Virus record (IMG/VR): IMGVR_UViG_3300031825_000370 | Coordinates: 1-46,868 of that record | DNA from: a virus | Length of the DNA stretch: 46,868 nt | Direction: 5' to 3' (one strand) | Shown here: piece by piece, positions 2,057-26,086 of the stretch | How the letters are laid out: every line of letters starts with the position of its first letter | How positions within the stretch are numbered: position 1 is the first letter of the stretch | Position numbers and translations under genes: made by a program | The notes under the pieces: generated by a model | The model's database searches: none | Told to the model about the DNA's origin: nothing | The model's input: only the letters and a program-made list of their open reading frames with translations

Positions 2057-2065
2057 GCAACGCAC
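2057..2065 (-). repeat. GTGCGTTGC intergenic motif, copy 1
   Basis: The motif GTGCGTTGC on the minus strand starts 3 nt after the stop of the SGNH spike gene and ends 46 nt before the endolysin start. It continues as GGCGG. Role unknown; one of nine copies in the late module. Confidence 0.75.
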
Positions 2066-2067
2066 CG

Positions 2068-3372
2068 TCAGAGCGCGAGAATGCTGGCGCGCAGGCCGTC
2101 GAATATACGACTTGCGTAATATTCATTGCCGTAAGGGGATGACGGATGCACACCATCGGGTCCGGTGACGAAGTCCGAATTGCCGCTTCCTGTTTCCGAC
2201 CCCACCTTGCCCGTACCCGTACATAGTGGCGCAGGCCCAAACCGACCATTCGCGCCGGAGCTGTTGTTCCAGGCTCCACGTGTCAAATCAAGATTAACCC
2301 AAGGACCGGAAATGCCCTGCAAAGCAGCGTAAAGCAGATCCTGCTTGCTCTGCGAAGATCCGAAGTAGCTGGTGAGCGGCGTCCAGACGCCGATATTAGC
2401 GATGACCGCACCCGGAAGCGCGGCGCGAACTTGCGCAAAACAGGAGGCAGCAGCGGCCTGAAGGCCGACTGTACCGTCGTTCAGGCCTCCGCCGAAGAGA
2501 GCCAGGTCCGGGTTCGTCTGCCGGAGCACGTCGAGCCGGCCAGCCGCCTGGAATGTCACTGCTCCGGTGCCTCCGGTGATGTATCCTGATCCACCACCCG
2601 GCGAGATCGAAAGGCAGGGGATACTGTCTTTGGAGAGCAATGCCAAAATGGCATCTCCATAGGGACCCATCTGGAGCATGGGAGCGGTGCCTTGCCCATA
2701 GCTATCCGTCAGGGCGGCCACTCGAATTTCGCCGTCCAGGTCGATCGGCGCGACAGACCCGGTGGGCTCATGCGCGACACCACAGAAGCCGAAGGATCGA
2801 CCGTAGCAAACGATCTTCTGGCCACTGATACGAGCGGGGAAAGTAATGCCGAGACGAACGGTGGCATAGCCGGAAGACGAGGTAAGGACGTAGTTTGCAG
2901 CCGCCAGTTCACCGTCCACGAAAATGGTCCACGTCCCGCCTGCCCGATCAAGCAGCTCGAAGACAGTTCCCTCCGCCTTGAATGCCACCAGCACCTCGTT
3001 GATGCCGTTGGTGCCTGAGACGCGGGTGCCGTAATACGGTACACCACCAGTTGTGAATAGCGTGCTCCATCCGGGAAGATCGTGGACCGAGAAGGCGATG
3101 CCCGCATTTGCCGCGAAGCGCTTCTCGACAGCGCCCGCGATGATCGACGTACCAACGCCAGATGCGGCTGGCGCCGTCTGGCTCAATGTCGGCGGAGATG
3201 CCATCGCAACCGGCACTCGGCCAGATGCGGAGCGGAAGGCGGTCTTCAGGCGCGCCAAGGGCAACACCGGGTCGATCACCCGGCCGAGCGGCACACGCAC
3301 GTCGTCGCCGAACTTATCGTGGCCGGTCAGATAGGCCGCATCGCCCACGGGCAAGTTGATCACGTCGCGCAT
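2068..3372 (-). CDS. Tail spike/fibre protein with SGNH esterase domain
   Basis: 434 aa from MRDVINLPVG. The N-terminal ~70 residues look like a virion-attachment region and residues 75-200 like a beta-rich carbohydrate-binding module. From about 215 there is an SGNH/GDSL hydrolase: nucleophile Ser224 in ALTDSYGQG, the Asn/Gly block in FGGGLND (Asn298) and the Asp/His pair in DGVHPSS (Asp406, His409). These correspond to SGNH blocks I, III and V. Such domains de-O-acetylate capsule or lipopolysaccharide during adsorption. The gene lies between the tail fibre and the lysis genes, as expected for a receptor-binding protein. The ATG at 3372 was chosen because it follows GGAGGGTGCG and motif copy 2. 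Confidence 0.85.
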   Translation of the reverse strand: MRDVINLPVGDAAYLTGHDKFGDDVRVPLGRVIDPVLPLARLKTAFRSASGRVPVAMASPPTLSQTAPAASGVGTSIIAGAVEKRFAANAGIAFSVHDLPGWSTLFTTGGVPYYGTRVSGTNGINEVLVAFKAEGTVFELLDRAGGTWTIFVDGELAAANYVLTSSSGYATVRLGITFPARISGQKIVCYGRSFGFCGVAHEPTGSVAPIDLDGEIRVAALTDSYGQGTAPMLQMGPYGDAILALLSKDSIPCLSISPGGGSGYITGGTGAVTFQAAGRLDVLRQTNPDLALFGGGLNDGTVGLQAAAASCFAQVRAALPGAVIANIGVWTPLTSYFGSSQSKQDLLYAALQGISGPWVNLDLTRGAWNNSSGANGRFGPAPLCTGTGKVGSETGSGNSDFVTGPDGVHPSSPYGNEYYASRIFDGLRASILAL

Positions 3373-3416
3373 CGCACCCTCCGTCTGACGCGACGGTAGG
3401 GGCCGGGCGGAGGGGT

Positions 3417-3425
3417 GCAACGCAC
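3417..3425 (-). repeat. GTGCGTTGC intergenic motif, copy 2
   Basis: Lies 44 nt upstream of the spike gene start, in the gap that also holds the rightward RHH gene. This copy continues as ACCCC instead of GGCGG. Confidence 0.75.
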
Positions 3426-3503
3426 CGCGAGATCATCAGTTGCAGCTAGCGCGACGACGCCGCCTTACAGTAGGCTCGGCCTCATGCAATCTGGGGCCAT
3501 AAA

Positions 3504-3692
3504 ATGGTGTCATTCACAATCGACCTGGACGAAGCCACGGGCGCCGCTGTCGAACGCGTCGCTACGGAGCGAGGCGGGCATCCATCAGATGTGATCGCTG
3601 AGGCTGTGCGGTTCTGGCTGATCTGCCAAGGCCAGATCACTCCAGCGCCAGATACCGACGAATGGGGCAACAAGGAATCTCCCTATCCATAG
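3504..3692 (+). CDS. Small ribbon-helix-helix-like protein (candidate moron)
   Basis: 62 aa. The start MVSFTIDLDEATGAAVERVA followed by GGHPSDVIAEAVRFWL has the beta strand, helix, turn, helix pattern of ribbon-helix-helix DNA-binding proteins (CopG/Arc/antitoxin type). It is the only rightward gene within the leftward late module and sits between the two receptor-binding protein genes, ending 1 nt from the convergent fibre stop. That placement is typical of a moron with its own promoter. No clear -35/-10 pair or strong ribosome site was found, and no toxin partner is adjacent. Function is not known. Confidence 0.55.
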   Translation: MVSFTIDLDEATGAAVERVATERGGHPSDVIAEAVRFWLICQGQITPAPDTDEWGNKESPYP

Positions 3693-3693
3693 G

Positions 3694-5346
3694 TCAAACT
3701 GCTGCGACGCTCGGAGCCTGCCAGCCGGTCCCGTTCCACTCGACGTTCTTTCCAAGATCTGTGTCAAAAACCTCGAAGCCGCGGTCGGTGGTGGTATTCA
3801 GACTGAGGGCCGTGCGCTGCGCCGTCGTCATGGCGACACCCGTCCGCAGCGGGCGCCACCCCGTGTTGCTGCCGTTCCCGAACTTCAGATAGGCGGCTGT
3901 GCTCCCCGTAGGGTCCTGGCGTAGAAACAGGTCACCGCCATTGCCCATAATGGCCCCTTCGGGGAACCCCGCGCCAGCCTTGATCGTCCGATAGTTCTCG
4001 GCGACGCCGTCCGTGGTGCGCAACGTCAGTTCTCCGGTCTGGCCCACCTTGAACAGCGTCGTGGCGTCGCCCTTCTTGATGGCCACAGCACCATTCGCGT
4101 CGCCCTCCAAGGACACCGTATTGGCGTCGTCGTCCGCGAGGCGCCACGTCAGCTTGCCAAGGTCCGAAATCCTGAACTGCACCCAGTTGCCAACCGCAGC
4201 CACCAATGACCGCAGCACATCAACCCACCGGGCCGAGTCCTCGGTCTGGAATTGCAATCCGGCTTCCATCGAGCCGACCACGGCATTCTGCACGAGACCG
4301 ATGCGTGTACCGGTGCGGCTGTTCAGAACGCCGCATTGCGTGGTGATACGGTAAAGGACTGGGGTCCCGTCCCCGATGGGTCCGAACCACGTCGTCGCGC
4401 TTTCGAACTGGCAACAGAAGCCCGCTCCCTCGACCGTCCCCACGTCGATGCCGAAGCCGGACAAAGAGTTTTGCGGGCCTGTATTGGGGCCGCCCTGACG
4501 CCCATTGACCACGAAGCCGGCCATCTCGCCGGTCTGCGCCAACGTGCTATCCCGCCAGTTGATCTTCGAGATGTTGATTTCGAAGGCGTTGTCGCCGGTC
4601 CCGGACAGGTCCGTGCCTGAACCTTCGACATTGACGTTTAGAGCGCGCGCCACGCGGCGGATCGTGGGATGCGGACCGCCGAGCGTGAAATCCTCAACGA
4701 AGCTCGGATAGATGCCGGATTCGTTGTTGAAGAGGTATCGATCGGTGTAGCCATCGAATCGTCGTGGGACGAGATCGTGCGGCTTCGAGGGCGTGAACCA
4801 CCAACCGACGGAATTGTCGCCAGGGAACACAATAGTGCCGCCGCCCCGCGCCGCCAACATGACCTCTGCGGCGGACAAGATACCCGCGTTGAATGCCTCG
4901 TTGGAGCGCCCAAGCTTACCGCCAAGGTGTCCGAACGGAACGACGCCATTATTGATGAAAAGGTTGAACCAGGTGCCTGCCGCATCCTGAATCGCCATCG
5001 GGCCATCGCTGGTGCCCCGCATGTAGAGAGCACCGGATCCCTGATCTCCCGCCTCATAGAAACCATCCACGCGGAACACGCGGAAGGGGATGGTGAATGT
5101 GGGGATCTCGCCACGGGTGATGTCGAGGGCGAGATAGTCCCCGTCGGCCAGCGCGACAGCGATGTCTGCCAGCGCCGGGTCGGTCAGCAGGGAACCCCGC
5201 AGCGTTGCCCGCGTCTCGCGCCGCAGCACCTTCGTGCCGACGCCTGACGCCTGGAGCAGCAGCAGCTCGTCGTCATCGTCGGCTGCGGCTGCGGCGGGAT
5301 AGGTGTCAATGCGCTTGCCCACGGGCTCCTCCGTCTTCGCCGCCAT
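3694..5346 (-). CDS. Tail fibre protein
   Basis: 550 aa from MAAKTEEPVGKRIDTYP. Residues 16-35 are a low-complexity run (AAAAADDDDELLLLQ) resembling a short adaptor region of podoviral fibres. The middle (100-420) is Gly/Asn/Thr-rich and beta-structured. The C-terminus (about 500-550) carries the common fibre ending TTDRGFEVFDTDLGKNVEWNGTGWQ. The predicted role is host receptor binding at the tail tip. The frame stays open upstream into the polyvalent protein gene, but the ATG at 5346 (after GGTCCTCCTCGCCTG and 23 nt past a GTGCGTTGC copy) gives a sensible protein start. Receptor and fold cannot be read from the sequence. Confidence 0.8.
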   Translation of the reverse strand: MAAKTEEPVGKRIDTYPAAAAADDDDELLLLQASGVGTKVLRRETRATLRGSLLTDPALADIAVALADGDYLALDITRGEIPTFTIPFRVFRVDGFYEAGDQGSGALYMRGTSDGPMAIQDAAGTWFNLFINNGVVPFGHLGGKLGRSNEAFNAGILSAAEVMLAARGGGTIVFPGDNSVGWWFTPSKPHDLVPRRFDGYTDRYLFNNESGIYPSFVEDFTLGGPHPTIRRVARALNVNVEGSGTDLSGTGDNAFEINISKINWRDSTLAQTGEMAGFVVNGRQGGPNTGPQNSLSGFGIDVGTVEGAGFCCQFESATTWFGPIGDGTPVLYRITTQCGVLNSRTGTRIGLVQNAVVGSMEAGLQFQTEDSARWVDVLRSLVAAVGNWVQFRISDLGKLTWRLADDDANTVSLEGDANGAVAIKKGDATTLFKVGQTGELTLRTTDGVAENYRTIKAGAGFPEGAIMGNGGDLFLRQDPTGSTAAYLKFGNGSNTGWRPLRTGVAMTTAQRTALSLNTTTDRGFEVFDTDLGKNVEWNGTGWQAPSVAAV

Positions 5347-5369
5347 CAGGCGAGGAGGACCGAGGCGCC

Positions 5370-5378
5370 GCAACGCAC
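5370..5378 (-). repeat. GTGCGTTGC intergenic motif, copy 3
   Basis: Immediately after the stop of the polyvalent protein gene (the TGA and the motif abut) and 23 nt before the tail fibre start. Continues as GGCGCC. Confidence 0.75.
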
Positions 5379-8300
5379 TCACCGGCGCGGCTGCTGCTCC
5401 GGCACTCCGAACAGGCCGTTGACGCCGGCTTCCGCCGCATCGAACAGGCCGCGCAGATAGAAGAGATTCTGCATGGCCATCAGGGTGCGCACCTTGTGAG
5501 TGTCGCTCGCGGCCCACTCGCCCGACGCGGCCGAACCCGTCACCCGCGACAGGGCGTCGATCTTTCCCGCCGTCGGCCCGATCAGCTGGTCGAGCACTGA
5601 GCGCGAGGCGAAGCGCGACAGCGGCTTGTCGGCGCCGATGGCCCGGTACAGGTCCACCGATCCGCGCGTGGTCTTCGCCGCCAGGGCGTTGCCCTCCTCC
5701 AGCCACCCGAGGATCCCGGAGCGCGAGATGCCTTCCTTGACCCAATCCTGCGGGCGGTCGCTGGTCTCCCGGCCCGAGGCGATGGAATAGAGCTTGTAGC
5801 CCACCATGCCGAGCGCCACCGCCGTGATGGCGCCCTGGAGTGCCTCAGCGTCCCGGCGCTGAAGGTTGGCGATCAGGGTGCGCTCGGTGCTGGAGGCGAC
5901 GAAGGTCTTGAACTGGCCGATGACGGACAACAGCGGGTTCGACAGCCACAGCGGCTTTTCCTGCCCCGGCGTCACGATGGCGATATCGGCCTCGCGCGCT
6001 ACGGCCCCCTCGAACGCCGCCCGTGCCGACTGGTCCGCCCAATCCGCCGTATTCGGTAGGTGCACGCCGTCCACCACCTGCCCGCCGACCTCGAACTCGC
6101 CCCAGATCTTCGCCGCCATCTGCGCATCGATGCCCGAGGCGGCAAGGTTCGTCACCTGCCGCGGCTTGGCCTTGCCCTCCGACACCGCCTTCGCGGCGCG
6201 CAGGATCTCATTGCCCGAGACGATGGCGGCTGTGGTCTTGCCCCAATCGGTCCACGGCGCTTGCAGGTTCACCACCTGGAGCTTGTCGGCGCCCCACCGC
6301 AGCCCGCGCTCGACGCGCGTGTGAGGCCGGTAGAGGTCGGTGATCTCCGCCATGCCGTGCATCCGGCCCGCCAGCACCATCTCGGTGGCGATACCCATGG
6401 CCCGGTACTGCCCCGCCGCCTGCCGCCATGGCGAGCCCTCCGACCGGTCCGCCAGCGACTGGAAGAACGGCGTCCAGCCGTCTCGCATCACGGTCATGAA
6501 GCCATGCCGGAACACCGGACCGGCGATATCCGACACCGAGGACAGCACCGTGCCGCCCATGGAGGTCAGCACGTTGAACGATTTCACCGCGTTGCCGATG
6601 CGCCCGGCCGCCTGCATCACCGAGTCGCTGGAGATCCCATAGGTGCTGCGGATGCGGTCGCGCATGGCCGCGATGTCGCGGATGGCGCCCTTGCGCTGCG
6701 TCTCGATCTCCCGGCGCGCCTTGTCGTTCGGGGCCGCCAGCGCCGCCGCATTGGCGTCCTCATCGATGGCCTTGAACACATAGGTCATGTCCACGTCGCC
6801 ATAGCGTTCCGTCAGCAGCACGTCCGGCACGATAGTGCGCAGGTGCGTGGCCGCCACGTCCTCGGCGTCGCTCACCAGGAAGTCCTCGATCGTCTCGTCG
6901 GGGATCATGAAATCGCGCGCCGCCAGAGGCCCGCGCGGCGGCGGACCTTCACCCCCGGCACCGATCCGCGGCCCGCCCGAGGGGGCATCATAGGGCAGGC
7001 GCCCGTCCGGCGAGCCGAGGATGCGGTTGGTGATTTCCGACGCCTTGGCCGCCAGCTCCTGCTCGGACAGCCCCCGCTCGGACGCGAGGATCTTGCGCAC
7101 CGCCGAATCCACCGCCGCGTCGGCCCCGCCCAGGCGCGGCGCGCCCGGCGCGCGGCCGGCCTCCGCCTTCGCCCGCTGCCGCAGCGCCGACATGGCTTCG
7201 GCCGTGCTCTTGCCCTCCCAGGCGCCAAGCTCGTCCTCGATGCGCTTGCGGGCGAGGTTCACCCGCGCCTCGGCGTCGCGCTGGAACGTCTCCACCAGTC
7301 CTTGCAGGCGGTCGAGCCGGTCCATGCGGTCGTTCAGGATGCCGAGGCGCCCGCGGTTCGCGTTGACGCCGATATCGGCCTCGCCCGCCCGGATCGCGTC
7401 CTTGCCGGCGCGCGCCTCCAGCCGGCCCGCATCCGCCTGTGCGCGGCCGATCAGATCGCGCAGCTTCTGGATCGCCGCCCGCTCGCCGGCAAGCATCCCC
7501 TCCACCTGGTCGGCGCGGCCCGCCGCCGGCACCGTGGCGCCCGCCGCCTCCATCTCGCCGAGAATGCGATCAAGATCCGCGAGAGAGACAGCACCACCAC
7601 CGGCCGCCTGCTGCTCACCGCGCAGCATCTTCGCCACGTCGGCGATGGTCTGCGGCATGGCCGCGCCGGCCCGGTTCAGCGCCTCCTCCCACACCGTCGC
7701 CATCTGGCTCGCACGAGCCTTCGCCTCATCCACCCGCGTTTCGCGCCACCACCACGGATCTTCGCCGCGCACCGCGGCGTCGATCCAGTCGAGCACCTCG
7801 TTCGGCGTCGGCCGCTCGGTGAGCGTGCCGCCGGAGGCTTCCACCAGCCTCTCGCCCCAATCGTCCGCAGACCGGCCGCCGGAGGAGACGAGGCCCGGCT
7901 TCGTGCTGCGCGCCCCGCCGAGCGCTTGCATGACCTCGCCGCCATCATCCGCGATGCCGCCGCCGCGCACGATGTAATCGAGGAACGATGGCGCCTTGTA
8001 GGGCTTGCGCTGGCCCACCAGCATCTGCGCCGCGATCCGTGTCTCGCCGGTGAGGATGGCCCGCAACTCCCGCTGCTCGGCCGCCTGCACCTGCGCTTCG
8101 GTCACCGGCCGGTCCGCCCGGCGCAGGTCCTTCAGCTCGCCCTCCAGATTCAGGATGCGATCGCGCAGCACCGGATCGGCGATCTCCCCCTTCATGGCGC
8201 CGACGAATTCTTCGAGGTCGCTGATCTCCTGCGCCACCAGCGCTTGCCGCTCCTCCAGCACGCCGGCCCGGCGCTCGGTGCGGCCCACCTCCATCGCGCG

Positions 8301-11195
8301 CTCGGACAGCGCGGCGTCGAGCTTCTGCATGCGGGCGTCGAGCCGGCGGGCCTGCGCCTCCATCCGACGAATTGCCTTCTCGGCGGCCTGCTTGTCCTCC
8401 CACAGGCCGGCGAGGCGCTGCTGCGCCGCCGCCTTGCGCTCCTGGTCCGCGCCGAGCCAGCCGGTCACCCGCCGCACGAATTCATCGCGCCGCCCGGCGA
8501 TCTGCCCCTTGTCGTAGACGCGCTGGAAATAGGATTCCGCCGTCTCCACGCCAACGTCCTCGGGCAGGAGGCCGGCCTTGATGGCGCGCTCCTTCCACGG
8601 CGTGAACACCTTCGCGCGCAGGAATTGCGCGGCCTGCGCCACCTCCGGAACCTCGTGCTGGTCGCCGCGGCGCATGGCCCGGCCGATCTCCATGTTGAAG
8701 TCCTCTCGCGTCATCGCCCCCGGCGCCGCCCGGCCGGTCACATCCTCGAGGAAGGCGCGCGCGTTCGGCGCGGTCACCGACCGGTTGAAGCGCATCTGTG
8801 AGAACAGGCGGTCCAACTCGTCCGAGACGGCAACCCGGGCCTGCGCGACCTGCATGCGCGCCAGGCGGTCGAGCGCCGGCCCCTGCGTCGTGGCGATACC
8901 GGCGCGGTTCTCCACGAACTGGAGCGCCGTTTCGGCAAGATCCGCCGCCGCCCGGCGCACCGCCGGGAATGGTGACGATAGGGCGCGCAGGGTGGGCGAC
9001 ATCTTCATGACGCCGGGCACCCGGTCGAGCCCGAACCGCTCAAGGGTGAGGGCGCGCGTGTCGGCCACGGCCGCCCCGGCCGCGGCAGGTGCGCCGACCT
9101 CGCGCGGCGGCGGCTCCACCGCCAGCATGCGGTCCATCACACCGCGGATGTCGTCCGGGATCGGCTCGCCCAGGTCCGATACGGCGCGGTAGATGGCCGT
9201 CAGCCACTCCTTGAACTGCTCGAACACGCGGGCGAGGCCGGTGCTCGGCGCCTTGCCATCCCGCAGGTATTGCTCAAAGCCCTGTGCCCACTTCTCCTGC
9301 TCGGCCCGGCCGATCTTCGAGGCATCGTCTACACCGAGCCAGCGCAGGGCCACATCCAGGTCCGCCTTCACCGCAGGCGACACCTCGGCGTCGCGCACCA
9401 GCTCCGACAGCCATAGGTGCCCGCTCTCGTGCATGAAGGTGGAGGCGTCGCGGCCCTGGAACAGCTCAATGACGGCGCGGTTGTCGGCCAGCGTGATGGC
9501 GCCGCGAGGAGCGCCGTCCTTCGCCTGATAGAGCTTCTCTCCCGAATAGGCGGAGAACACCCGGTCCGGCCGCAGCACCACCACCTGATCGGCGCCGTCG
9601 TGCTCCATCAGCCCGCGCACGACGATGGTGTCGTAGCCGTGCTGCTGCCCATAGCGCACCGCCGCGCTCAGGGCGCCGCTGGAGCGCATCACGCGCCGCG
9701 AGCGCTCCACCATGGCGGAAATATCGGCATCCGTGGCGTCCGGAATCACATCGCGGGCCGCCCGCGCTGCCTCTGTCTGCATGTCCGCCTGCGCAATCTG
9801 GTCTGCCAGGCGCTGGCGGGAATGCGCGTCGAGCTGGGTCACCGGAATCCAGCTCCCTTCGGCGCCCCGCCCCTGCCGGTCGCTGTTCGCGGCGTGCAGC
9901 AGGTCGATGAACTCTGGATCGCTGCGGATCATCTCCGGCAGGTCGAGCACCTTGAACCGGCCGGGATCGACCTTCACCTTGAAGATGCGCGGGCCGGCGC
10001 CCTCGGCGGCGCCGGTGCCCGACGCATAGGTGGCCGCCATACCCGGCGACGGGGCGAGGAACAGGCCGCGCTCGTCCGGCGGCGTGTGGGGATTGGTGCC
10101 GTTCTCCGGGTCGAAGCGCTCGAAATCCGTCGTTGCCTCGGTGCCGTGGTAAAGGGTCCATTCCTTCGCACCGGTGTCCATGCGAACCGGGCCGCGCGAT
10201 TCCCCGCGCGCCGCAGCGGCCGGCGCCGGCGCCTTCACCTCGGTGCTGACCCCGGCCGCCTTCAGCCGGTCGAGCCAGGATTGCGGCAGGCTGTCCGGCC
10301 CCAGAACCTCCGGCGCCTCGGCCGACCGGATGTCGATGCCTTCCTTCTGGTAGAGGTCGAACGCTTCCGCCGGATCCAGCCCAAGGCGACGCGCCCGGGT
10401 GTCGTACCGGGCCGCGAGAATGTCCGCGCTCGCCGCCGCCTTGTCCTCCGGCACGCCGGCCGCCGTCAACTGACGCAGCACATCCTCGCGCACCAGGCCG
10501 GCCGCCGGATTCGGCACCGGCGCCGCGGGATCGGAGAACGGCGCCCGCGCCCCGTCTAGCGTCCGCTCCAGCGCCCGCCGCTCCGCCAACCCGACCAGCG
10601 CCGCCGCGCCACCGCCGAGCAGTCCGCCCAAGATGGCGCCCGAAGCGATATTGACCCCCGATTCCGCCAGCGTGCGCGTCTCCTGCGCCCCCTGAAGCGC
10701 GGCTTCCTGAAGCGCCACCGCCCCGGCCGCCGCCGTGCCGACGGACAAGGCCGACCGCAGCGCGGACAGTCCACGCGCGCCGCGCACCAGGGCTCCGCCG
10801 GGCAGGAATGTGGTCGGGCTGATGAGGCCGGCGCCGATTCCCATCACGGTCCCGGTCCAGCCGGCCGCATCGATGGTGCGGTCATCCTCGCGCTCGCGAT
10901 CGATGCGGGCACGGATCGCCTGCGTCTCCGCCTCGGACCGCGAATTCCAGAAGTTCCGGTCAAACTGCTGCTGGTAGAGCGTGCCCTTGAACGCCGGGTC
11001 CTGGAACACGTCATAGCCCGGCTCGGGCTCGAAGGTTGGCCGGGTCAGCCAGTCGGCGACGTTCCACACATCGTTGTCGGAGCGGAAGGCGGCGGCGGCC
11101 ACCTGCCCCAGGGACGGGTCCGGCCGCTCGGGAGCGGGCTGGAAGGGCTCGGCGGGAGCGAGGGCGAAGGTATCGGAGCTGGGGCGCGTGGGCAT
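5379..11195 (-). CDS. Giant polyvalent internal virion protein with ART-like and zincin-like domains
   Basis: 1,938 aa. Residues 110-205 hold several Gly/Ala-rich hydrophobic segments (GTVMGIGAGLISP, GAILGGLLGGGAAALVGL) that could cross membranes during ejection. Residues ~345-555 resemble an ADP-ribosyltransferase of phage polyvalent proteins: EWTLYHGTE, then GLFLAPSPGMAATYASG, ending DQVVVLRPDRVFSAYSGEKLY. Residues 586-596 (TFMHESGHLWL) carry an HExxH zinc-metallopeptidase motif with a following EQFKEWLTAIY helix. Long coiled coils occupy roughly 890-1110 and 1250-1360. By position and size it corresponds to the T7 gp16-class ejected proteins. It is expected in the virion and delivered into the cell with the DNA. 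The enzymatic activities are predicted from motifs only. Confidence 0.85.
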   Translation of the reverse strand: MPTRPSSDTFALAPAEPFQPAPERPDPSLGQVAAAAFRSDNDVWNVADWLTRPTFEPEPGYDVFQDPAFKGTLYQQQFDRNFWNSRSEAETQAIRARIDREREDDRTIDAAGWTGTVMGIGAGLISPTTFLPGGALVRGARGLSALRSALSVGTAAAGAVALQEAALQGAQETRTLAESGVNIASGAILGGLLGGGAAALVGLAERRALERTLDGARAPFSDPAAPVPNPAAGLVREDVLRQLTAAGVPEDKAAASADILAARYDTRARRLGLDPAEAFDLYQKEGIDIRSAEAPEVLGPDSLPQSWLDRLKAAGVSTEVKAPAPAAAARGESRGPVRMDTGAKEWTLYHGTEATTDFERFDPENGTNPHTPPDERGLFLAPSPGMAATYASGTGAAEGAGPRIFKVKVDPGRFKVLDLPEMIRSDPEFIDLLHAANSDRQGRGAEGSWIPVTQLDAHSRQRLADQIAQADMQTEAARAARDVIPDATDADISAMVERSRRVMRSSGALSAAVRYGQQHGYDTIVVRGLMEHDGADQVVVLRPDRVFSAYSGEKLYQAKDGAPRGAITLADNRAVIELFQGRDASTFMHESGHLWLSELVRDAEVSPAVKADLDVALRWLGVDDASKIGRAEQEKWAQGFEQYLRDGKAPSTGLARVFEQFKEWLTAIYRAVSDLGEPIPDDIRGVMDRMLAVEPPPREVGAPAAAGAAVADTRALTLERFGLDRVPGVMKMSPTLRALSSPFPAVRRAAADLAETALQFVENRAGIATTQGPALDRLARMQVAQARVAVSDELDRLFSQMRFNRSVTAPNARAFLEDVTGRAAPGAMTREDFNMEIGRAMRRGDQHEVPEVAQAAQFLRAKVFTPWKERAIKAGLLPEDVGVETAESYFQRVYDKGQIAGRRDEFVRRVTGWLGADQERKAAAQQRLAGLWEDKQAAEKAIRRMEAQARRLDARMQKLDAALSERAMEVGRTERRAGVLEERQALVAQEISDLEEFVGAMKGEIADPVLRDRILNLEGELKDLRRADRPVTEAQVQAAEQRELRAILTGETRIAAQMLVGQRKPYKAPSFLDYIVRGGGIADDGGEVMQALGGARSTKPGLVSSGGRSADDWGERLVEASGGTLTERPTPNEVLDWIDAAVRGEDPWWWRETRVDEAKARASQMATVWEEALNRAGAAMPQTIADVAKMLRGEQQAAGGGAVSLADLDRILGEMEAAGATVPAAGRADQVEGMLAGERAAIQKLRDLIGRAQADAGRLEARAGKDAIRAGEADIGVNANRGRLGILNDRMDRLDRLQGLVETFQRDAEARVNLARKRIEDELGAWEGKSTAEAMSALRQRAKAEAGRAPGAPRLGGADAAVDSAVRKILASERGLSEQELAAKASEITNRILGSPDGRLPYDAPSGGPRIGAGGEGPPPRGPLAARDFMIPDETIEDFLVSDAEDVAATHLRTIVPDVLLTERYGDVDMTYVFKAIDEDANAAALAAPNDKARREIETQRKGAIRDIAAMRDRIRSTYGISSDSVMQAAGRIGNAVKSFNVLTSMGGTVLSSVSDIAGPVFRHGFMTVMRDGWTPFFQSLADRSEGSPWRQAAGQYRAMGIATEMVLAGRMHGMAEITDLYRPHTRVERGLRWGADKLQVVNLQAPWTDWGKTTAAIVSGNEILRAAKAVSEGKAKPRQVTNLAASGIDAQMAAKIWGEFEVGGQVVDGVHLPNTADWADQSARAAFEGAVAREADIAIVTPGQEKPLWLSNPLLSVIGQFKTFVASSTERTLIANLQRRDAEALQGAITAVALGMVGYKLYSIASGRETSDRPQDWVKEGISRSGILGWLEEGNALAAKTTRGSVDLYRAIGADKPLSRFASRSVLDQLIGPTAGKIDALSRVTGSAASGEWAASDTHKVRTLMAMQNLFYLRGLFDAAEAGVNGLFGVPEQQPRR

Positions 11196-18344: not shown

Positions 18345-18348
18345 CTGC

Positions 18349-19239: not shown

Positions 19240-19263
19240 AAAAGTGCGGGGCCGAAGCCCCGC
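19240..19263 (-). terminator. Terminator-like hairpin after the coat gene
   Basis: Read leftward: GCGGGGC-TTCG-GCCCCGC followed by ACTTTT. The perfect 7-bp GC stem with a stable TTCG tetraloop begins 4 nt after the coat stop. It could attenuate late transcription downstream of the most highly needed protein or protect the 3' end of the coat message. Confidence 0.75.
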
Positions 19264-19267
19264 AGGA

Positions 19268-20233
19268 TCAGGCGACGATCGCCGCGTCGGTGATGGAGGA
19301 CAGGCGCGTGAGCGTGTACTCGTTCTCGATCACGAAGCCGAGGTCCCAGGTGAACCAGGTGCGATAGAGCGGCGTGTCGCCGGTCAGCACCAGGCCAACG
19401 TCCTTCACGTCCATGGGCTTCAGCTCGATGCCCTTAAGGCCGCCGTCCTCCGGGTTCATGGAGAGGACATAGATGGACGAGCACGCCGCCGTGCCCCCAC
19501 CGTAGGCCGCCTCGGTGAAGGGCAGCAGTCGCTGGTTCTTGTCGATCGGATAGCCGAACAGGATCGGCAGGTCGGCGTAATAGTAGCCGCCCTGCCCCAC
19601 GCCGCCGAGGTCGTTCATACCCGTGCGCTGGACGAAGCCGGCGACGGTGGTCGAGCGCACCATGGCCGGCATGTAGCGCTTCATGCCGTAGGGCATGATG
19701 ATGTGCGTGGGGCTGCGCGTCTCCGCGATGGCCTGATCCAGCTTCGCCAGCGAGAGGGCGCCGCCGCCGGACCCGGTGTTGTTCGGGATCACGCGGTTGA
19801 ACCGGTCCGCCCGCTTCTGGAGCCCGTCGGGCTCCTTCGGATTGGTGGTATTATCACCCTTGAAGAGGGCGTCGGTCACCAGGCGGATGATGGCCTTAAC
19901 CTTCATCGCCTCCTTCTCGTTCCGGCGGGCCTCGCCGGCACGATCGACGATGGCGCGATCAACATCCAGGTAGGAGTCGATCACATAGGTGGCCTCCTGG
20001 AACGGCTCGATCGTGCCGTCGGAGCTTTCGGCCGGCGCGTTGATGCCGCGGAAGGCAGCGCTCGGCAGCACGGCCTCGCGATAGCCCTCATAAATGGCGG
20101 AGCCGAGCCCCTCGAAGCGCAGCACCTGGAAGACATCGCTCTCCTTCGAGAACATCTCGATGATCGGGCGACGCAGATCGCCCTTCTCCAGACCCTTCGC
20201 GTACTCGGGCAGCGTGATCAGTGCGCCAGCCAT
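19268..20233 (-). CDS. Major capsid protein (epsilon15/BPP-1-like)
   Basis: 321 aa, from MAGALITLPEYAKGLEKGDL. It contains PIIEMFSKESDVFQVLRFEG, a segment around residues 85-115 with basic residues (DRAGEARRNEKEAMKVKAII), the region LFKGDNTTNPKEPDGLQKR, and a late TWFTWDLGFVIENEY block. This organisation is that of short HK97-fold coats of temperate podoviruses such as epsilon15 (about 335 aa). It forms the icosahedral shell. The gene directly follows the scaffold and precedes the cement protein. ATG 20233 is preceded by a GAGTGAGAG ribosome site. Confidence 0.9.
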   Translation of the reverse strand: MAGALITLPEYAKGLEKGDLRRPIIEMFSKESDVFQVLRFEGLGSAIYEGYREAVLPSAAFRGINAPAESSDGTIEPFQEATYVIDSYLDVDRAIVDRAGEARRNEKEAMKVKAIIRLVTDALFKGDNTTNPKEPDGLQKRADRFNRVIPNNTGSGGGALSLAKLDQAIAETRSPTHIIMPYGMKRYMPAMVRSTTVAGFVQRTGMNDLGGVGQGGYYYADLPILFGYPIDKNQRLLPFTEAAYGGGTAACSSIYVLSMNPEDGGLKGIELKPMDVKDVGLVLTGDTPLYRTWFTWDLGFVIENEYTLTRLSSITDAAIVA

Positions 20234-20243
20234 CTCTCACTCC

Positions 20244-21008
20244 TCAGCGCTTCCCGGCCGCGGCGCGGCGGGCGTAATCCATCTTCTGGGTGGTGCTCAT
20301 CGCGGCGTATTCCTCGTCCGAGGGTTCCGCCGCCTTGCCGGGAACATCGCGCCCGCCGCCAGGCAGGCCTGCGCCGCCCTGACTGGAAATCTTGCTGGCC
20401 GCCCACTCCCACGCCTCGACCTGCCAGGCCGCGAAAAGGTTCGCCTGTGCCTGTTCGGCAATATGCTTCGGCGCAGTCGCGAGAAACGTCTTCACCGCAT
20501 CGATGCGCGCGTTCGCGTTCGCGCCGAGCTTCGGTTTTTCGGCTGCGATATCCGCCTGGAGCTTTGCATCCTCGGCGATCTTGTCCTGCGCGTAGAGGCC
20601 CAGGAGCCGCGAGAACTCCGCCTGCGGCAGGCCCATCTCGTGCGCCACCTTGCGGGCGTTCTGGAGGAGCGGCGACTGCTCGTCGAACTCGAACGTCGCC
20701 CCCTCCGGCACGGCGCCCTGCGGCAGCTCCAGCTTGTAGCCGTCCGGCTTCTCGGGGATCGCCCTCGCCCGCTCGGCCTGCGCCGCGGTGAGCGCCTTGT
20801 GCTCGTCCAGCACCGGCTTCAGGGCGTCCAGCTTGACGCCGCTCTCGCCCCAATAGCCCTCATCCAGCCAGTCAGGCCGGGCCGCCGGGCTCGGAATCGA
20901 CGGCACCGGCGATGCGCCGCCGCCGGACGCCGCGGGGGGCGTCGGTGCCGGCGGAGTGCCGGGCGCGGGCGAGGGGCTGGCCGGGGTCGGGGAAAGCGGG
21001 TCGGGCAT
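20244..21008 (-). CDS. Capsid scaffolding protein
   Basis: 254 aa. An N-terminal Pro/Ser/Ala-rich segment (1-45) is followed by WLDEGYWGESGVKLDALKPVL, typical of podoviral scaffolds. A charged helical region and a Lys/Arg-rich C-terminus (YAAMSTTQKMDYARRAAAGKR) follow. Scaffolds of this class direct coat assembly and leave the procapsid. The ATG at 21008 is inside the preceding small gene; a GTGCGTTGC copy lies 69 nt upstream. Order portal, small gene, scaffold, coat is normal. Confidence 0.88.
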   Translation of the reverse strand: MPDPLSPTPASPSPAPGTPPAPTPPAASGGGASPVPSIPSPAARPDWLDEGYWGESGVKLDALKPVLDEHKALTAAQAERARAIPEKPDGYKLELPQGAVPEGATFEFDEQSPLLQNARKVAHEMGLPQAEFSRLLGLYAQDKIAEDAKLQADIAAEKPKLGANANARIDAVKTFLATAPKHIAEQAQANLFAAWQVEAWEWAASKISSQGGAGLPGGGRDVPGKAAEPSDEEYAAMSTTQKMDYARRAAAGKR

Positions 21009-21210
21009 CGGGGTTCGGCGCCTCGTCGAGCAGCAGGATCAATCTGCGAGCGAGGGTTCGTCGGCCGAGGTCTTCGTGCAACGCACCGGGGGGGCACCCC
21101 GGCGGCGGCACCTGCATCAGGATCTCCATCAGCAGCGCGCGCGCCAGCTTTCCGTCCACCGTGCAGCCCAGGCGCCGCCACGCCTCTTCCATGTCCTGGA
21201 TGCTGATCAT
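20872..21210 (-). CDS. Small protein between portal and scaffold
   Basis: 112 aa. It starts 7 nt past the portal stop with MISIQDMEEAWRRLGCTVDG and continues ARALLMEILMQVPPPG, RRTLARRLILLLDEAPNP. The first ~65 residues look like a real helical protein. The last ~45, Arg/Pro-rich, overlap the scaffold gene in another frame and may be drift. No family recognised. Motif copy 7 lies inside it. Confidence 0.5.
   Translation of the reverse strand: MISIQDMEEAWRRLGCTVDGKLARALLMEILMQVPPPGCPPGALHEDLGRRTLARRLILLLDEAPNPDARPAFPDPGQPLARARHSAGTDAPRGVRRRRIAGAVDSEPGGPA
21078..21086 (-). repeat. GTGCGTTGC motif, copy 7 (inside a small gene)
   Basis: 69 nt before the scaffold start and within the overlapping small reading frame. 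It continues as ACGAA, like copy 2 in having A after GTTGC. Confidence 0.6.
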
Positions 21211-21217
21211 GCGCGCC

Positions 21218-22801
21218 TCACGCCGCCGCCGGCATGGGCGCGCCGCCCTGCGCGGCCGGCGCCTGCCCGCCCTGGAGCTGCGCGATCTGCGCCGCCGCGG
21301 CCTTGATGTCGTCCTCGCTGCGCCAGGCCACGATCTTGCCGGCGCCGAGCTTGTCGGAGAGATTCTTCATGGTCTGCGCGCCATCCACCCGCAGCTTGAA
21401 CTCCTCCGGGAAGGCCGCGCCGGCGGTGGCCGTGAACTGGTTGAAGGCCGCCACCTCCAGCGCATCCTGCTCGCGCTGCGCCGGATTGATCGGCGTGAGC
21501 GACACCGCCGCGCCGTTCACCTTCACCGCCTCGATCTTGCCGGCCGCCTGCAACAGGTACTGGAACCGCAGGAAGGTGCCGCCGCAGAACTCGCGCCAGA
21601 AGACGAGGCCCGGCGTGCCGATGCGGCGAAGCGCCCGCTTCACCTCCTCGGCCCACTGCGTGGCTGTGGGCGGGGTGTCGCCGCGCTGCTCCGGGAAGTC
21701 CTGATAGAACAGGCGCTTGATGCGCCGCTCCAGGTTCGCCTCCTCGAACAGGGCGGCATCCGGCTTCGGCTGCTCGTAGAGCGGCTTGATGGCGCCCTCG
21801 GTGCCGGGCCGCACGGGATAGAACATCCCGGCCTCCACGCCGCCCTCCAGGTTCGCCATCTGATCGTCGGGATAGCCCATGGGCGGGCGGATCATGCCGT
21901 CCAGAGAATCGATGAAGAGCGCGCGCTGCTCATCGAGCTGCCGCAGGTCTGGCAACGCCCGAAGAATCGGCCCCCAGCCGAAGGCCCATTCCGCGAACGC
22001 CCCGAACCGGCCGACCACCAGAGGGCACGACCCCTCGCCGCGCAGCACCGCCGAATGCACGACCTCCTTGTCGATCATGACGACGTGCTGCCACACCTCG
22101 TCGCCGCGCTCGGACCAATCGCGCCAGTAGCCCCAGCGCACCACGCACTTGTCGCGCTTCTTCTCGGCCACCTTCTTCGCGATCTTGCTCGGCAGGGTCA
22201 CATCCGGAAGCAGCGCCGGCAGCTTGCCGAAGCATGTGTGGCGGACCACGAAGCGATCGTCGATATCGCCGGTGGGGCCGACATTGATCTCCAGCTCGCG
22301 CAGCGGGACGGACTGGCAGAAGATCGGCTGGCCCGGCCGGCCCGTGTCGATCCACATGGCCAGCGTGCCCGTGGCCGCGTCCGGGTTCACGCCTTTGGCC
22401 AGCTCGGGATAGAAGTTTGACGCCGAGATGCCATCGAAGATCGCGGCGTCGCCCGCGGCGACGCTATCCTTGACCTCCTCCCAGACATCATCATCCACCA
22501 GGGCGCCCTTCGCGCGCGCCGCCCAGGGTTGCGTCTGCGGCATGAAGGTGTCGCAGATCAGCGAGCCGAAGTCCTCCGAGCACTCGAAGCCGAGGCTGGT
22601 CTGGAGCTCCGCCTGATCGTCGGGCTTGGTGGTGGCCGGCGCGTTGGAGCTGGAGATGTCACGGGCGCGGGGCGGGGCCGAGAAGAAATAGGCCTCCTCC
22701 AGGTCCGCCCGCCACATGCTCTTCTGCCGACGGCAGTCCTCCAGGCGCTCGCACGCCTCCTCACTCAGTTCCTTGTAGGGGCCGGAGGCTGGGGCCGCCA
22801 T
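21218..22801 (-). CDS. Portal protein (podoviral head-tail connector)
   Basis: 527 aa. The N-terminus reads ACERLEDCRRQKSMWRADLEEAYFFSAPPRARD, the helical opening typical of T7/P22-type portals. Further landmarks are LICDTFMPQTQPW, a conserved block QRALFIDSLDGMIRPPMGY, and the family sequence GTEGAIKPLYEQPKPDAALFEEANLERRI (read in two parts). A C-terminal Ala/Gln-rich tail closes it. Portal rings sit at one vertex, thread DNA during packaging and bind terminase and adaptor. Length matches T7 gp8 (536 aa). The ATG directly follows the TGA of the upstream small gene. Confidence 0.9.
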   Translation of the reverse strand: MAAPASGPYKELSEEACERLEDCRRQKSMWRADLEEAYFFSAPPRARDISSSNAPATTKPDDQAELQTSLGFECSEDFGSLICDTFMPQTQPWAARAKGALVDDDVWEEVKDSVAAGDAAIFDGISASNFYPELAKGVNPDAATGTLAMWIDTGRPGQPIFCQSVPLRELEINVGPTGDIDDRFVVRHTCFGKLPALLPDVTLPSKIAKKVAEKKRDKCVVRWGYWRDWSERGDEVWQHVVMIDKEVVHSAVLRGEGSCPLVVGRFGAFAEWAFGWGPILRALPDLRQLDEQRALFIDSLDGMIRPPMGYPDDQMANLEGGVEAGMFYPVRPGTEGAIKPLYEQPKPDAALFEEANLERRIKRLFYQDFPEQRGDTPPTATQWAEEVKRALRRIGTPGLVFWREFCGGTFLRFQYLLQAAGKIEAVKVNGAAVSLTPINPAQREQDALEVAAFNQFTATAGAAFPEEFKLRVDGAQTMKNLSDKLGAGKIVAWRSEDDIKAAAAQIAQLQGGQAPAAQGGAPMPAAA

Positions 22802-23399
22802 TCATCGGCTCCCCATCATCCGCGGCGCGGACAACGAGGCGCCCGAGAGGGCGGTACGTGCCCCGAACATCCGGAACACCCGGTCCGTCTCCCCGCCGAG
22901 CTGGTCCTGCACCGTCCGCACCCGGTCCGCCTCCGCGCGCTGGCGCGCTGCAATCAGCTCCGGATCTTCCTGCGGCTGCGGCGTTTTCATCGAAGATCAC
23001 TCGGCCTCCATGACGCAGGCAGTCTTTCAGCAGGGCGTCCGGCCGCAACGCACCCGACCGAAGCCCCACCAACTGCGCCACCGCCGGCACACACCAGCCG
23101 CCGAGAGCCCTGGCCCGCCCGCCATCCCCGGCCGCCAGCGACACCACCGTGCACCGGTCCTTCATCCACACCGCATCGAGGTATCCGCGCGCCACATCCT
23201 CCGGCAGGGCCAGCATCATGGTGGCGCGCAGGCGCGGGTCGAACACCACCCAGCAGCCCGCCGCCCGGCTCCAGCCCACCGCCGAGACGTGGCGGAATTC
23301 CCCAGCCGCCAGAAGGCGCACCCACCAGACCGGGCTCTCGCGGTGGAACACCACCAGCCAGTTCTCCACCAGCCCGTCGATCGCCCGCAGATCCGTCAT
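22761..23399 (-). CDS. Conserved phage protein between large terminase and portal; C-terminus overlaps two genes
   Basis: 212 aa if read to the first stop. Residues 1-130 look genuine: IDGLVENWLVVFHRESP, RLLAAGEFRHVSAVGW, GCWVVFDPRLRATMMLAL, GGWCVPAVAQLVG. Similar ~150-aa proteins occur next to terminase in many alphaproteobacterial phages. After about RHGGRVIFDENA the composition becomes Gly/Ala/Arg-rich, because this frame overlaps the whole 22802-22990 gene and the portal start. The tail is probably non-adaptive read-through or an ancestral stop has been lost. Its ATG overlaps the large terminase stop by 4 nt. Function unknown. Confidence 0.65.
   Translation of the reverse strand: MTDLRAIDGLVENWLVVFHRESPVWWVRLLAAGEFRHVSAVGWSRAAGCWVVFDPRLRATMMLALPEDVARGYLDAVWMKDRCTVVSLAAGDGGRARALGGWCVPAVAQLVGLRSGALRPDALLKDCLRHGGRVIFDENAAAAGRSGADCSAPARGGGPGADGAGPARRGDGPGVPDVRGTYRPLGRLVVRAADDGEPMNGGPSLRPLQGTE
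22802..22990 (-). CDS. Small phage head-region protein
   Basis: 62 aa, MKTPQPQEDPELIAARQRAE, then a helical Arg/Glu/Asp stretch and FRMFGARTALSGASL. Small proteins with this Pro-rich start, charged helix and Gly/Ala/Leu ending are common just before podoviral portals. The stop TGA is directly followed by the portal ATG, so the two are coupled. The product is unknown. It lies entirely inside the 3' part of the preceding open frame. Confidence 0.6.
   Translation of the reverse strand: MKTPQPQEDPELIAARQRAEADRVRTVQDQLGGETDRVFRMFGARTALSGASLSAPRMMGSR
23045..23053 (-). repeat. GTGCGTTGC motif, copy 8 (inside coding sequence)
   Basis: 54 nt before the 22990 start and in frame with the overlapping gene, where it helps encode SGALRP. 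It continues as GGCCGG. A coding coincidence is possible for this copy. Confidence 0.5.
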
Positions 23400-24943
23400 G
23401 CCGCCCCCCGTCGCAGCGATCGCCGCCCAGGCCGGCCCGACACCGGCTTCGCATCGCCACCGGTGGACCGGCCCACCATCGCCCGGCCCTCGCCCGCGCC
23501 GAGGATCAGGTATTGCAGCGCATCGGCGACGTGGCTGTAGCGGTTCTTCTCCGGGTCCTCGGCATAGCCGTTCGTCCCCTGGATGCGCCGGAAGTGGTAT
23601 TTCCCCTGCATCGCCACCTTCAGCGTGCGGCAGGCCGGCGACAGCAGGAACCGCGGCATGCCGTCATGCATCCCGCCCAGCACGAACTCGACTGCCTCCA
23701 GCCGCGTCTTCACGTTGTTCATCGGCACCGGCGCCGGCTGCACGTTGATGTCGAACGAGCGGAACACGTCATAGGCGGTCTGCTCGTGCGACTGCGGCTT
23801 GTCCCGCCCCTTCGGATCCCCGAACACCTCGAACCGCCAGCCCGTGCCCGGAAAGCGCAACTGCATCTCGCGCTTCACCATCGGCGCGAAGGTGGTCGAA
23901 CCCACGTCGAACGCCTGAAGCTCGAACAGCACCTGCCACCGGTTGTTGATGATCTGCCCGAAGATCGCCGCCGGGGTCCGCCCGAAGTCGAGCCCCACAT
24001 AGACCGGCCAGCCGGGGATCGGCTTTAGCTCCTGCTTCGCCACGTGCGTCTCAGGCCGGAAGCTCGGCCACACCGGCTTGCCGTCCACGAACACCGAGAT
24101 ACGGTTCATGACACGGCTGTCGATCCAGGCCCGCGTCTTGCCCTCGATCAGCTTCGCGTAATAGTTCGCCCCGCCCTTCAACCACATCAGGTTTTCGGCC
24201 GCGGGGTTCAGCTTGTAACCCACCACCGACTTCCCGTCGGCGCCCATCACCTCCAGCAGGCCCGCCGGCTGTTGCAGGTACCGCCAGCCCTTCGGCCAAC
24301 GCATCTGCTCGATCTCATCCGGCGTCCAGTGCTCCGGCGGCGGCACCTCGCCCGTCATCAGCGGGATGAAGTGGTCCTCGCCCGGCTCGTTCATGTCGGC
24401 GATCACGCCCGACCACGTCGCCCCGCCGTCTTTCACCGCCGGGAACCGGCCCGCGCGCGAGTGCGCTTCGTCGAACAGCTCCTTCGGGATGTACTGCAGC
24501 TCGTTGATCCAGATGCCCGTGTATTCCGTCGAGCGCAGCTTGCGCACGTCCTCCGGCTTGTCGAGCGCGAGGAAATCCACCTCAAGCTCCACATCCCCCA
24601 CCCGGATCAGATGCTTCATCGGAATCGAATAGAGAAACCGCCCGTAGACCTCCTCCGGGAACAGATCCAGCCACGTCCGCACCGTCGCCGTCTTCAGGTC
24701 CGGATAGGTGTTGCGCACCACCGCCCACCGCGTCCGCCGGATGCCGTCCCGCCCCGGCCGCTGCTCGTTCGCGTGCAGCCAGATCCGGATGCACGACGCC
24801 AGCGACTTCCCCGACCCGATCGGCCCCCGCACCACGCACACCACGGACCGGTCCGTGATGTACTCCGCCAGCGTCGGCCCGCCCGGCTCGTACATCAGCC
24901 GTCCCTCGCGATCCCGCTGCTGCTCCCGCCGATGCTCAGCCAT
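23396..24943 (-). CDS. terL: Terminase large subunit
   Basis: 515 aa from MAEHRREQ. Walker A is VVRGPIGSGKS (about residues 37-47). The Walker B-like strand is TGIWINELQYI. The RNase H-fold nuclease begins at VGLDFGRTPAAIFGQ and continues with FGDPKGRDKPQ and the late YSHVADALQYLI, which carries the final acidic residue. The ATPase pumps DNA into the procapsid and the nuclease cuts concatemers. A GTG two codons upstream (24949) is an alternative start; the ATG at 24943 overlaps the stop of the upstream small gene. Length fits the family. Confidence 0.95.
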   Translation of the reverse strand: MAEHRREQQRDREGRLMYEPGGPTLAEYITDRSVVCVVRGPIGSGKSLASCIRIWLHANEQRPGRDGIRRTRWAVVRNTYPDLKTATVRTWLDLFPEEVYGRFLYSIPMKHLIRVGDVELEVDFLALDKPEDVRKLRSTEYTGIWINELQYIPKELFDEAHSRAGRFPAVKDGGATWSGVIADMNEPGEDHFIPLMTGEVPPPEHWTPDEIEQMRWPKGWRYLQQPAGLLEVMGADGKSVVGYKLNPAAENLMWLKGGANYYAKLIEGKTRAWIDSRVMNRISVFVDGKPVWPSFRPETHVAKQELKPIPGWPVYVGLDFGRTPAAIFGQIINNRWQVLFELQAFDVGSTTFAPMVKREMQLRFPGTGWRFEVFGDPKGRDKPQSHEQTAYDVFRSFDINVQPAPVPMNNVKTRLEAVEFVLGGMHDGMPRFLLSPACRTLKVAMQGKYHFRRIQGTNGYAEDPEKNRYSHVADALQYLILGAGEGRAMVGRSTGGDAKPVSGRPGRRSLRRGAA

Positions 24944-25192
24944 CCGCACGCTCCAGAAGCCCCGCGGAATACCGGTGATGCAGCATCATCACCGCCGTAC
25001 CGAGCGGGTGCCGCGTCCCGGCGACACCACTCCAACCTGTGCCTTGCGCACCATCAATCGCGGTGGTCGCATAGCCAAGCCCGTCAGGTGCCCGCTGCGT
25101 GCGCGCTCAAGAAGACCTTCGAGGATTTCGACCAGATCAGCCGACGGCTCGCCAGGAATGCAGCCCCCACCAAATGCAACAACCTCAGCCAC
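24936..25192 (-). pseudogene. Small conserved phage gene interrupted by a 1-nt deletion
   Basis: The frame from GTG 25192 (GGGAGG 9 nt upstream) reads AEVVAFGGG, then SADLVEILEGLLERARSG and HLTGLA. There it would continue as unrelated sequence and stop at 24989. In the -1 frame the same DNA continues as YATTAIDGAQGTGWSG, then VAGTRHPLGTAVMMLHHRY and SAGLLERADG, and stops at 24936, overlapping the terL ATG. Joined, the product is ~85 aa and looks like a conserved small phage protein. The junction GGCTTGGCTATGCG (around 25070-25077) lacks one T relative to an uninterrupted GCTTATGCG reading. A true deletion, a sequencing indel or programmed frameshifting are all possible. Function unknown. Confidence 0.65.
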
Positions 25193-25223
25193 CGCCACAC
25201 CTCCCGGACATTTTCACCACCAG

Positions 25224-25258
25224 AAAAAATTCCAACACCCAGAACAGTTTATGGGTGT
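25224..25258 (-). terminator. Hairpin with T-run between small terminase and the downstream gene
   Basis: Read leftward: ACACCCA, 10-nt loop, TGGGTGT, TGGAA, TTTTTT. The 7-bp stem is followed by six T after a 5-nt gap. It sits in the ~220-nt untranslated stretch between the small terminase stop and the frameshifted gene. If active it would end transcription after the small terminase gene unless relieved. No other feature was seen in this gap. Confidence 0.6.
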
Positions 25259-25414
25259 GTTGCGTGTGCGGGGTACCAGCGCCCACACCGGCCGCCGGTT
25301 TTGCCCCCCACCCCCTCGCTCGCAGGCCGGCCGGCAGAACAGACCCCCGGTGGCCCTCGCCGATGTCCGCGCCGTCGACCAGGCCAGAGGCGGATGGATG
25401 CAAGGTCGGATGCC

Positions 25415-25936
25415 TCACTCGTCGGGCTCACCTGCAGGCGTTCCCCACCCATGGACCGGAACGGCCTCGTGTTCGATCAACGGCTTATGCTCGATCGACG
25501 CCAGATGACCCATCTGCGGGCCGGGCAGCGCGCCCTCGCGGATCACCACCACGATACCGGGCTTCACATCCGTCCGGCGCTCGGTGGTAGCATCCTGCGC
25601 CATCTCCTCCAGGATGCGCGCGGCCTGCACAGCCGCCCCTTTCGCGTCGCTCTGGTCTCGCAGTTCCGCCAGTCGGCTGATGTTGCGCGGGCGGTGCGAA
25701 GCCTTGAGCACCTGCATCTCTGCTTGCATTGCCGCAAGGAAGGACTGGCTTCTGATCGCCACGAATGCAGCGCTGCGGGACATCCCGATTTCACTAGCCG
25801 CGTCTGTTAAAGGTCTGGCATTCCACACCATCTCATGGAGAAGCCTGCGCCGCATTTCGGTGAGCTTTGCGAGGTGCGGAGCGATCTCCTCGGCCTCATC
25901 GAGGATGTCGGCTGGAGAGGGTGTGCCTTCGTCCAT
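25415..25936 (-). CDS. terS: Terminase small subunit (probable)
   Basis: 173 aa from MDEGTPSPADILDEAEE. Residues ~30-70 contain a helix-turn-helix (MVWNARPLTDAASEIGMSRSAAFVAI) expected of a DNA-recognition subunit. A long helical segment follows (FLAAMQAEMQVLKAS, SRLAELRDQSDAKGAAVQAA) that would drive ring formation. The C-terminus is loose and ends VPVHGWGTPAGEPDE. First gene of the packaging block, upstream of terL. ATG 25936 has GGCGGAG upstream; a longer frame exists but its extra 81 residues are basic and Pro-rich, unlike coding sequence. Confidence 0.8.
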   Translation of the reverse strand: MDEGTPSPADILDEAEEIAPHLAKLTEMRRRLLHEMVWNARPLTDAASEIGMSRSAAFVAIRSQSFLAAMQAEMQVLKASHRPRNISRLAELRDQSDAKGAAVQAARILEEMAQDATTERRTDVKPGIVVVIREGALPGPQMGHLASIEHKPLIEHEAVPVHGWGTPAGEPDE

Positions 25937-26077
25937 GGGCTCCGCCGTCGGGGATATGCCTCGCGGGGGTGGGACCCCGCTTCGCCGGTCCTCGCTCGGG
26001 CTGGTCGCCCTCACTGTGGAAAGAAGAGCGGGCGCGCGGGGCGACGCGGGGGAGATTGGGGGTGTGGCTTCTCGGTC

Positions 26078-26086
26078 GCAACGCAC
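26078..26086 (-). repeat. GTGCGTTGC intergenic motif, copy 9
   Basis: The most upstream copy, 141 nt before the small terminase start. It continues as GACCG, as copy 6 does (GACCC). It marks the head of the leftward late module. Confidence 0.7.

Follow-up and report, generated by a model that had tools for sequence, protein, structure and literature searches.

P2 Ogr, Mu C/Mor and T4 MotA/AsiA represent the activator-dependent phage late or middle promoters, and XRE-fold activators, among them lambda cI at PRM and the C proteins of restriction-modification systems, belong to a class in which contact with sigma region 4 is known. A different type of repeat, the Start-Associated Sequences of cluster K mycobacteriophages (SAS, GGGATAGGAGCCC), abuts the start codon on its 5′ side and has been connected with the initiation of translation (PMC3203893). 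In the Caulobacter GTA, GafY binds sigma-70 (RpoD) and has its site at -123 to -113, with IHF; GafZ has a palindromic site in the -35 to -10 interval, and one main promoter is combined with antitermination (PMC11150451).

The DNA considered here, called the window, comprises the full length of a virus record of 46.9 kb, whose gene content reads as that of a temperate podovirus. Nine copies of a short box are found on one strand of its late region, and these are quite probably the upstream elements of late promoters served by the host sigma-70 polymerase with an XRE-fold activator, many of them with leaderless starts. In each promoter, a box of 12 bp would span about -42 to -31, replacing the -35 element or fused with it, and a sigma-70-type -10 element, NANNNT (A at -11, T at -7), would follow downstream. 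The phage XRE-fold protein, encoded on the same strand just before the late region, would read the box, occupy the -35 position and thereby help and recruit the host RNA polymerase with its main sigma factor, which would start 7 nt past the last -10 base. At promoters 18224, 14416 and 11226, the first transcribed base would be the A of ATG, giving a leaderless mRNA; among the remaining promoters, some would have a normal leader with a Shine-Dalgarno sequence and two would be embedded in coding genes.

This predicted organization shares with P2 Ogr, Mu C/Mor and T4 MotA/AsiA several same-family late or middle promoters, a phage DNA-binding activator (here a candidate), the host sigma-70 polymerase and a weak or missing -35 element, but differs from them in its single asymmetric 12-bp box at -42 to -31, its XRE-fold candidate factor, its per-phage variants, its many putative leaderless starts and its two putative promoters within genes. 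The fold of the candidate protein is that of lambda cI at PRM and of the restriction-modification C proteins, from which the system is set apart by the single asymmetric box, the late-gene regulon, the long basic C-terminal helix and the lack of a curated family above cut-off. Like SAS, the boxes are short asymmetric repeats in one orientation before phage gene starts, and extended SAS repeats also differ between subclusters (PMC3203893); unlike SAS, the box is found ~40 nt before the start (peak 39-42 nt before ATG) rather than directly 5′ of it, and is tied to a -10 element. The Caulobacter GTA offers a further likeness, its late cluster being phage-derived; control of the GafY/GafZ type was rejected on geometry, the box lying at -42 to -31 with a spacer devoid of conserved bases. 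The features of the window are as follows.

45546-46868, plus strand: integrase (the late genes are on the minus strand)
27004..27528, minus strand: candidate late activator, an uncharacterised XRE-fold helix-turn-helix protein of 174 aa, 921 nt before the first box
727..26179, minus strand: late region, putatively under the control of the boxes (TerS?, TerL, portal, MCP, tail tubular, virion proteins, spike, endolysin)
26077..26088, minus strand: box 9, GTGCGTTGC at 26078-26086 plus flanks; putative first late promoter, 5′ of the putative small terminase gene
26053..26058, minus strand: predicted -10 of box 9, CAATCT, with the family spacing kept; predicted +1 = 26046
23396-24949, minus strand: TerL
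23044..23055, minus strand: box 8, within the conserved gene lying between TerL and portal; codons G-A-L-R-P
21218-22801, minus strand: portal
21077..21088, minus strand: box 7, within a small conserved gene 3′ of portal; codons G-A-L-H-E-D; -10 AACCCT at 21053-21058
19268-20233, minus strand: MCP
18223..18234, minus strand: box 6; -10 CACCGT at 18199-18204; predicted +1 on the A of the tail tubular protein A ATG (18192); leaderless class
17611-18192 and 15335-17614, minus strand: tail tubular proteins
14415..14426, minus strand: box 5; -10 CAGCCT at 14392-14397; ATG 14385 = predicted +1, internal virion protein; leaderless class
11225..11236, minus strand: box 4; -10 CACCCT at 11202-11207; ATG 11195 = predicted +1, 1938-aa virion protein; leaderless class
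5369..5380, minus strand: box 3, 5′ of a tail-spike-like gene; weak -10 CCTGAT; Shine-Dalgarno within a leader hairpin
3416..3427, minus strand: box 2; -10 TACCGT at 3393-3398; Shine-Dalgarno within a leader hairpin; ATG near 3372
2056..2067, minus strand: box 1, 5′ of the endolysin gene (ATG 2010); -10-like CCTTCT without A-11
Box 1 leader hairpin, minus strand: GGCGGTCCTCTCC/GGAGAGGCCGCC, containing the Shine-Dalgarno
727-2010, minus strand: endolysin

The nine copies of GTGCGTTGC had been placed by the original prediction at exactly the positions where they occur, all on the minus strand, and a shuffled control on both strands, suggested at that time, gives 0.74 copies expected on both strands against the nine observed (sd 0.89; maximum over 100 shuffles 4); the earlier rough estimate was less than one per strand. 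The enrichment is limited to the exact word, one-mismatch forms numbering 23 for 20.4 expected, and the right half of the window is indeed free of GTGCGTTGC. The five copies described as following a stop codon or terminator do so with a gap of ~0-20 nt, with TGA at 2068, 5379 and 11236, TAG at 14438 and a hairpin-T run preceding copy 18224; the sequences said to be shared by the leaders of copies 4 and 5, GCCTCGCCGC/CCCTCGCCGC-ATG, are present. Some descriptions need amendment. Location at late-gene borders does not apply to copies 7 (21078) and 8 (23045), which are within small conserved coding genes, and ~140 nt separate copy 9 (26078) from the first late gene, which it precedes; the extended form GGTGCGTTGCGGC, described as frequent, is exact in just 3 of the 9 copies. 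A start codon (GTG) within the box was also considered and was rejected, the frame being open in copy 5 only. Rfam and tRNA scans of the window gave no matches, nor did a nucleotide search against named phages.

Among annotated phages, the one nearest to the window is Microcystis phage Mwe-JY08 (L004, PP395640), with proteins 47-56% identical to those of the window (TerL 56%, portal 47%). Motif discovery in related phages had been proposed, and an unguided k-mer count on Mwe-JY08 returned GTGCGTTGA as the top late-strand 9-mer, with six copies versus 0.19 expected; the GTGCGTTG copies of this phage are upstream of late genes or within the gene 3′ of portal. The recorded host of Mwe-JY08 is Microcystis, yet both its proteins and its late-promoter box place it with this family of temperate podoviruses, and the host assignment may be worth checking. 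A scan of viral contigs for box-spacer-TCGCSNCATG yielded 42 loci, with strand counts in whole records of, for example, 8/0, 0/8, 8/0, 8/0 and 5/0; as these loci were picked by pattern, the unbiased test consists of 144 loci fetched solely by TerL or portal alignments. In these protein-selected relatives the late strand carries 253 copies of GTGCGTTG and the opposite strand 20, with at least one late-strand copy in 92 of the 144 loci. Equal numbers on the other strand, or loss of the motif in relatives, had been named as grounds for abandoning the idea; the strand counts are very unequal and the relatives retain the box or a variant of it. Divergent box pairs 75-125 nt apart are seen near the start of the late region (Mwe-JY08, 12500 minus/12623 plus; G053, 11900/11975; G049, 4718/4809; G050, 27619/27692), and for this reason some opposite-strand copies are probably real promoters of a leftward gene. 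As for search sensitivity, a single-protein terminase search of viral contigs found no matches; alignment queries gave matches, and one scan counted 473 terminase relatives. When bacterial genomes were scanned for the bipartite pattern, the matches listed were mostly scattered and single, and no late-strand GTGCGTTG was found in two contig fragments selected by the XRE gene (L409, L412).

Relatives without GTGCGTTG possess their own multi-copy late-strand variant, GTGCGGTG (late/other strand 10/0 in G043, 9/1 in G045 and 7/0 in G059), GTGCTTTG (7/0 and 6/0), GTGCAGTG (6/1) or GTGCGTCG (5/0), with the proviso that in some phages further words at up to two mismatches from GTGCGTTG are about equally frequent, so that the variant call leans also on position. 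In GTGCGTTG phages, agreement at the flanking positions -42, -41, -32 and -31 is far higher within than between phages (0 of 2000 permutations for each), and the same test detects no such within-phage agreement at positions -28, -27, -20, -15 and -3. By this measure, the element is ~12 bp long and evolves in concert within each phage.

The anatomy of the putative promoters was analysed with TTG set at -35 and a 17-bp spacer, at the 91 sites left after setting aside those in the two coding spots and those with ATG at +1. A-11 is present at 45 of the 91 sites (P = 3.5e-11) and T-7 at 50 (P = 1.4e-14), with a weaker signal for T at +4 (P = 3e-6), these values being too small since they assume independent sites and the phages are related; in sites with ATG at +1 (class I), A-11 occurs in 45/72 and T-7 in 40/72. 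A-11 and T-7 are the bases most strictly read by sigma-70. A sigma-70 -10 element is thus found at a fixed distance from the box, even where no start codon follows, although window copies 1 and 3 do not have A-11. The box spans the -35 region, about -42 to -31, with no conserved bases between it and the -10. There is no consensus -35 TTGACA: variants GTGCGGTG, GTGCAGTG and GTGCGTCG lack TTG, and the GTGCGTTG group shares TTG only. The earlier statement that the motif does not match sigma-70 promoters is consequently right only in part. Several one-strand copies precede late genes, as at activator-dependent phage late promoters, and with the -10 at fixed spacing the first candidate of the original prediction, a late-gene promoter requiring a phage factor, is the best-supported reading.

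Concerning this factor, comparison of the gene content of 30 phages leaves an XRE-fold protein (~170 aa) as the only non-structural family common to nearly all. Its gene is detected by HMM in 29 of the 30 (G040 weakly, E 4e-6; absent from the partial record G023), and also in G001, G007, G022 and G019, G001 being a phage that lacks any TerL-family homolog. Boxes are found 193 times downstream and 30 times upstream of the gene, some of the latter coming from records that start elsewhere in the genome, and the median distance from the gene to the first box is 1.4 kb, the window having 921 nt. The AlphaFold model of a relative's protein (pLDDT 85) has an XRE-type helix-turn-helix, residues 1-74 matching HipB (Z 10.6, rmsd 1.8), and the model matching C.Esp1396I (Z 9.1) and the lambda cI-sigma4 complex 1rio (Z 7.8); the C-terminus is a long helical part rich in basic residues. 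Searches of curated families gave sub-threshold or weak matches only, tblastn of one relative's protein found no match in named phages, and the family HMM found 4 weak partial matches in 385 genomes of one bacterial class, with at most single variant words nearby. In the window, a frame overlapping the C-terminus of the XRE gene and continuing after it (26721-27224, minus strand) encodes a protein that weakly resembles HU/IHF (E 0.0017, which does not reach the Pfam cut-off), and the XRE protein there looks unlike its relatives. On account of its position, universality and fold, the XRE-fold protein is likely to be the box reader and switch, acting as an activator. The box, its strand bias, conservation and concerted variants, the -10 elements, the leaderless spacing and the gene order can be read directly in the sequences; promoter activity, binding to the box and activation rather than repression are what we infer from them.

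Alternatively, the XRE protein could repress these promoters, or a host protein could control them; we regard this reading as rather unlikely. The box overlaps the -35 region, the classic position of an operator, many XRE phage proteins are repressors, and covariation does not single out the XRE gene, whose protein distances track box distances no better than those of structural proteins (partial r 0.16-0.22 versus 0.49 for portal). However, the core promoter is weak and has no normal -35 (GTGCGGTG and GTGCGTCG lack TTG), which argues for dependence on an activator; the box differs phage by phage, unlike the site of a host factor; and the XRE gene directly precedes the late region, as lambda Q does, rather than lying beside the immunity-type HTH gene at 32611-32886.

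At unselected sites outside the coding spots, ATG occurs at offsets 39-42 from the box start 20, 36, 12 and 10 times (78 in all), versus a background of ~2.3 per offset, and it coincides with the predicted +1 in 72 of 163 unselected sites. A Shine-Dalgarno-like sequence precedes 3 of these 72 leaderless-class starts versus 31 of 60 more distant, leadered starts, and the base before ATG is C in 59 of the 72. ATG at the predicted +1 and the missing Shine-Dalgarno fit leaderless mRNAs, which many of these promoters would give. In non-leaderless copies, hairpins between box and start, recognized by eye on unfolded sequence, hold the Shine-Dalgarno (window 2010-2055, 3372-3415 and 5317-5368; Mwe-JY08 23908-23956); a box-to-ATG RNA hairpin, considered as the feature common to all copies, is seen in some leaders only. 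The bases predicted to be transcribed first from the first late promoter (window 26010-26046), and from those of several relatives, look alike across distant phages (TCCCCCGCGTCGCCCCGCGCGCCCGCGTTCTTCT-like), perhaps as a pause or antitermination signal.

Inside genes, too, each phage tends to keep its own box. In the small gene 3′ of portal, 24 of 25 phages have their own box variant at a homologous codon pair, and 18 of 28 have theirs at homologous codons of the gene 5′ of portal. In the post-portal gene, all 17 GTGCGTTG phages encode Ala-Leu with TTG, a codon that accounts for 10.5% of Leu codons in structural genes; GTGCGGTG and GTGCAGTG phages encode Ala-Val, and the GTGCGTCG phage Ala-Ser. 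From these codons, the conserved entity is the nucleotide box rather than the protein, with the amino acid following it. Equal copy numbers inside genes had been named as counting against the motif; two copies are indeed there, yet they are conserved as boxes.

These observations bear on another proposal of the original prediction, in which the box would be a signal acting at the RNA level within late-mRNA leaders and serving translation initiation, processing or antitermination. The fixed distance to ATG in many copies and the Shine-Dalgarno held in some leader hairpins would suit it, but the distance of A-11/T-7 from the box is kept at sites where the start codon is distant, copies are kept within coding genes, change is concerted per phage, and in class I the predicted +1 is the ATG itself, so that the box would be untranscribed from its own promoter; such a signal is very improbable. 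Multi-copy one-strand late boxes are also typical of phage-encoded RNA polymerases and alternative sigma factors, but a -10 pattern that is that of sigma-70, and an XRE-fold protein as the only near-universal non-structural family in the gene-content comparison, make promoters of this kind just as improbable.

Whether the host-polymerase promoters proposed here represent a widespread, unrecognised class of late control is an evenly balanced question; in such a class, an uncharacterised XRE-fold activator would assume the recognition of the -35 region at 5-11 dispersed promoters, of which many would be leaderless and some would lie in genes, and box and reader would change together to give each lineage a private promoter code. 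The sequences themselves may be used to read how late genes are controlled in a large group of temperate podoviruses that has hardly been studied, and a testable regulator, the XRE-fold protein, can be named. The group would offer a natural experiment in which a regulator and its many dispersed sites shift specificity together, including a coding site where the promoter would dictate the amino acid. Translating structural genes from leaderless late mRNAs, if true, would be an unusual strategy.
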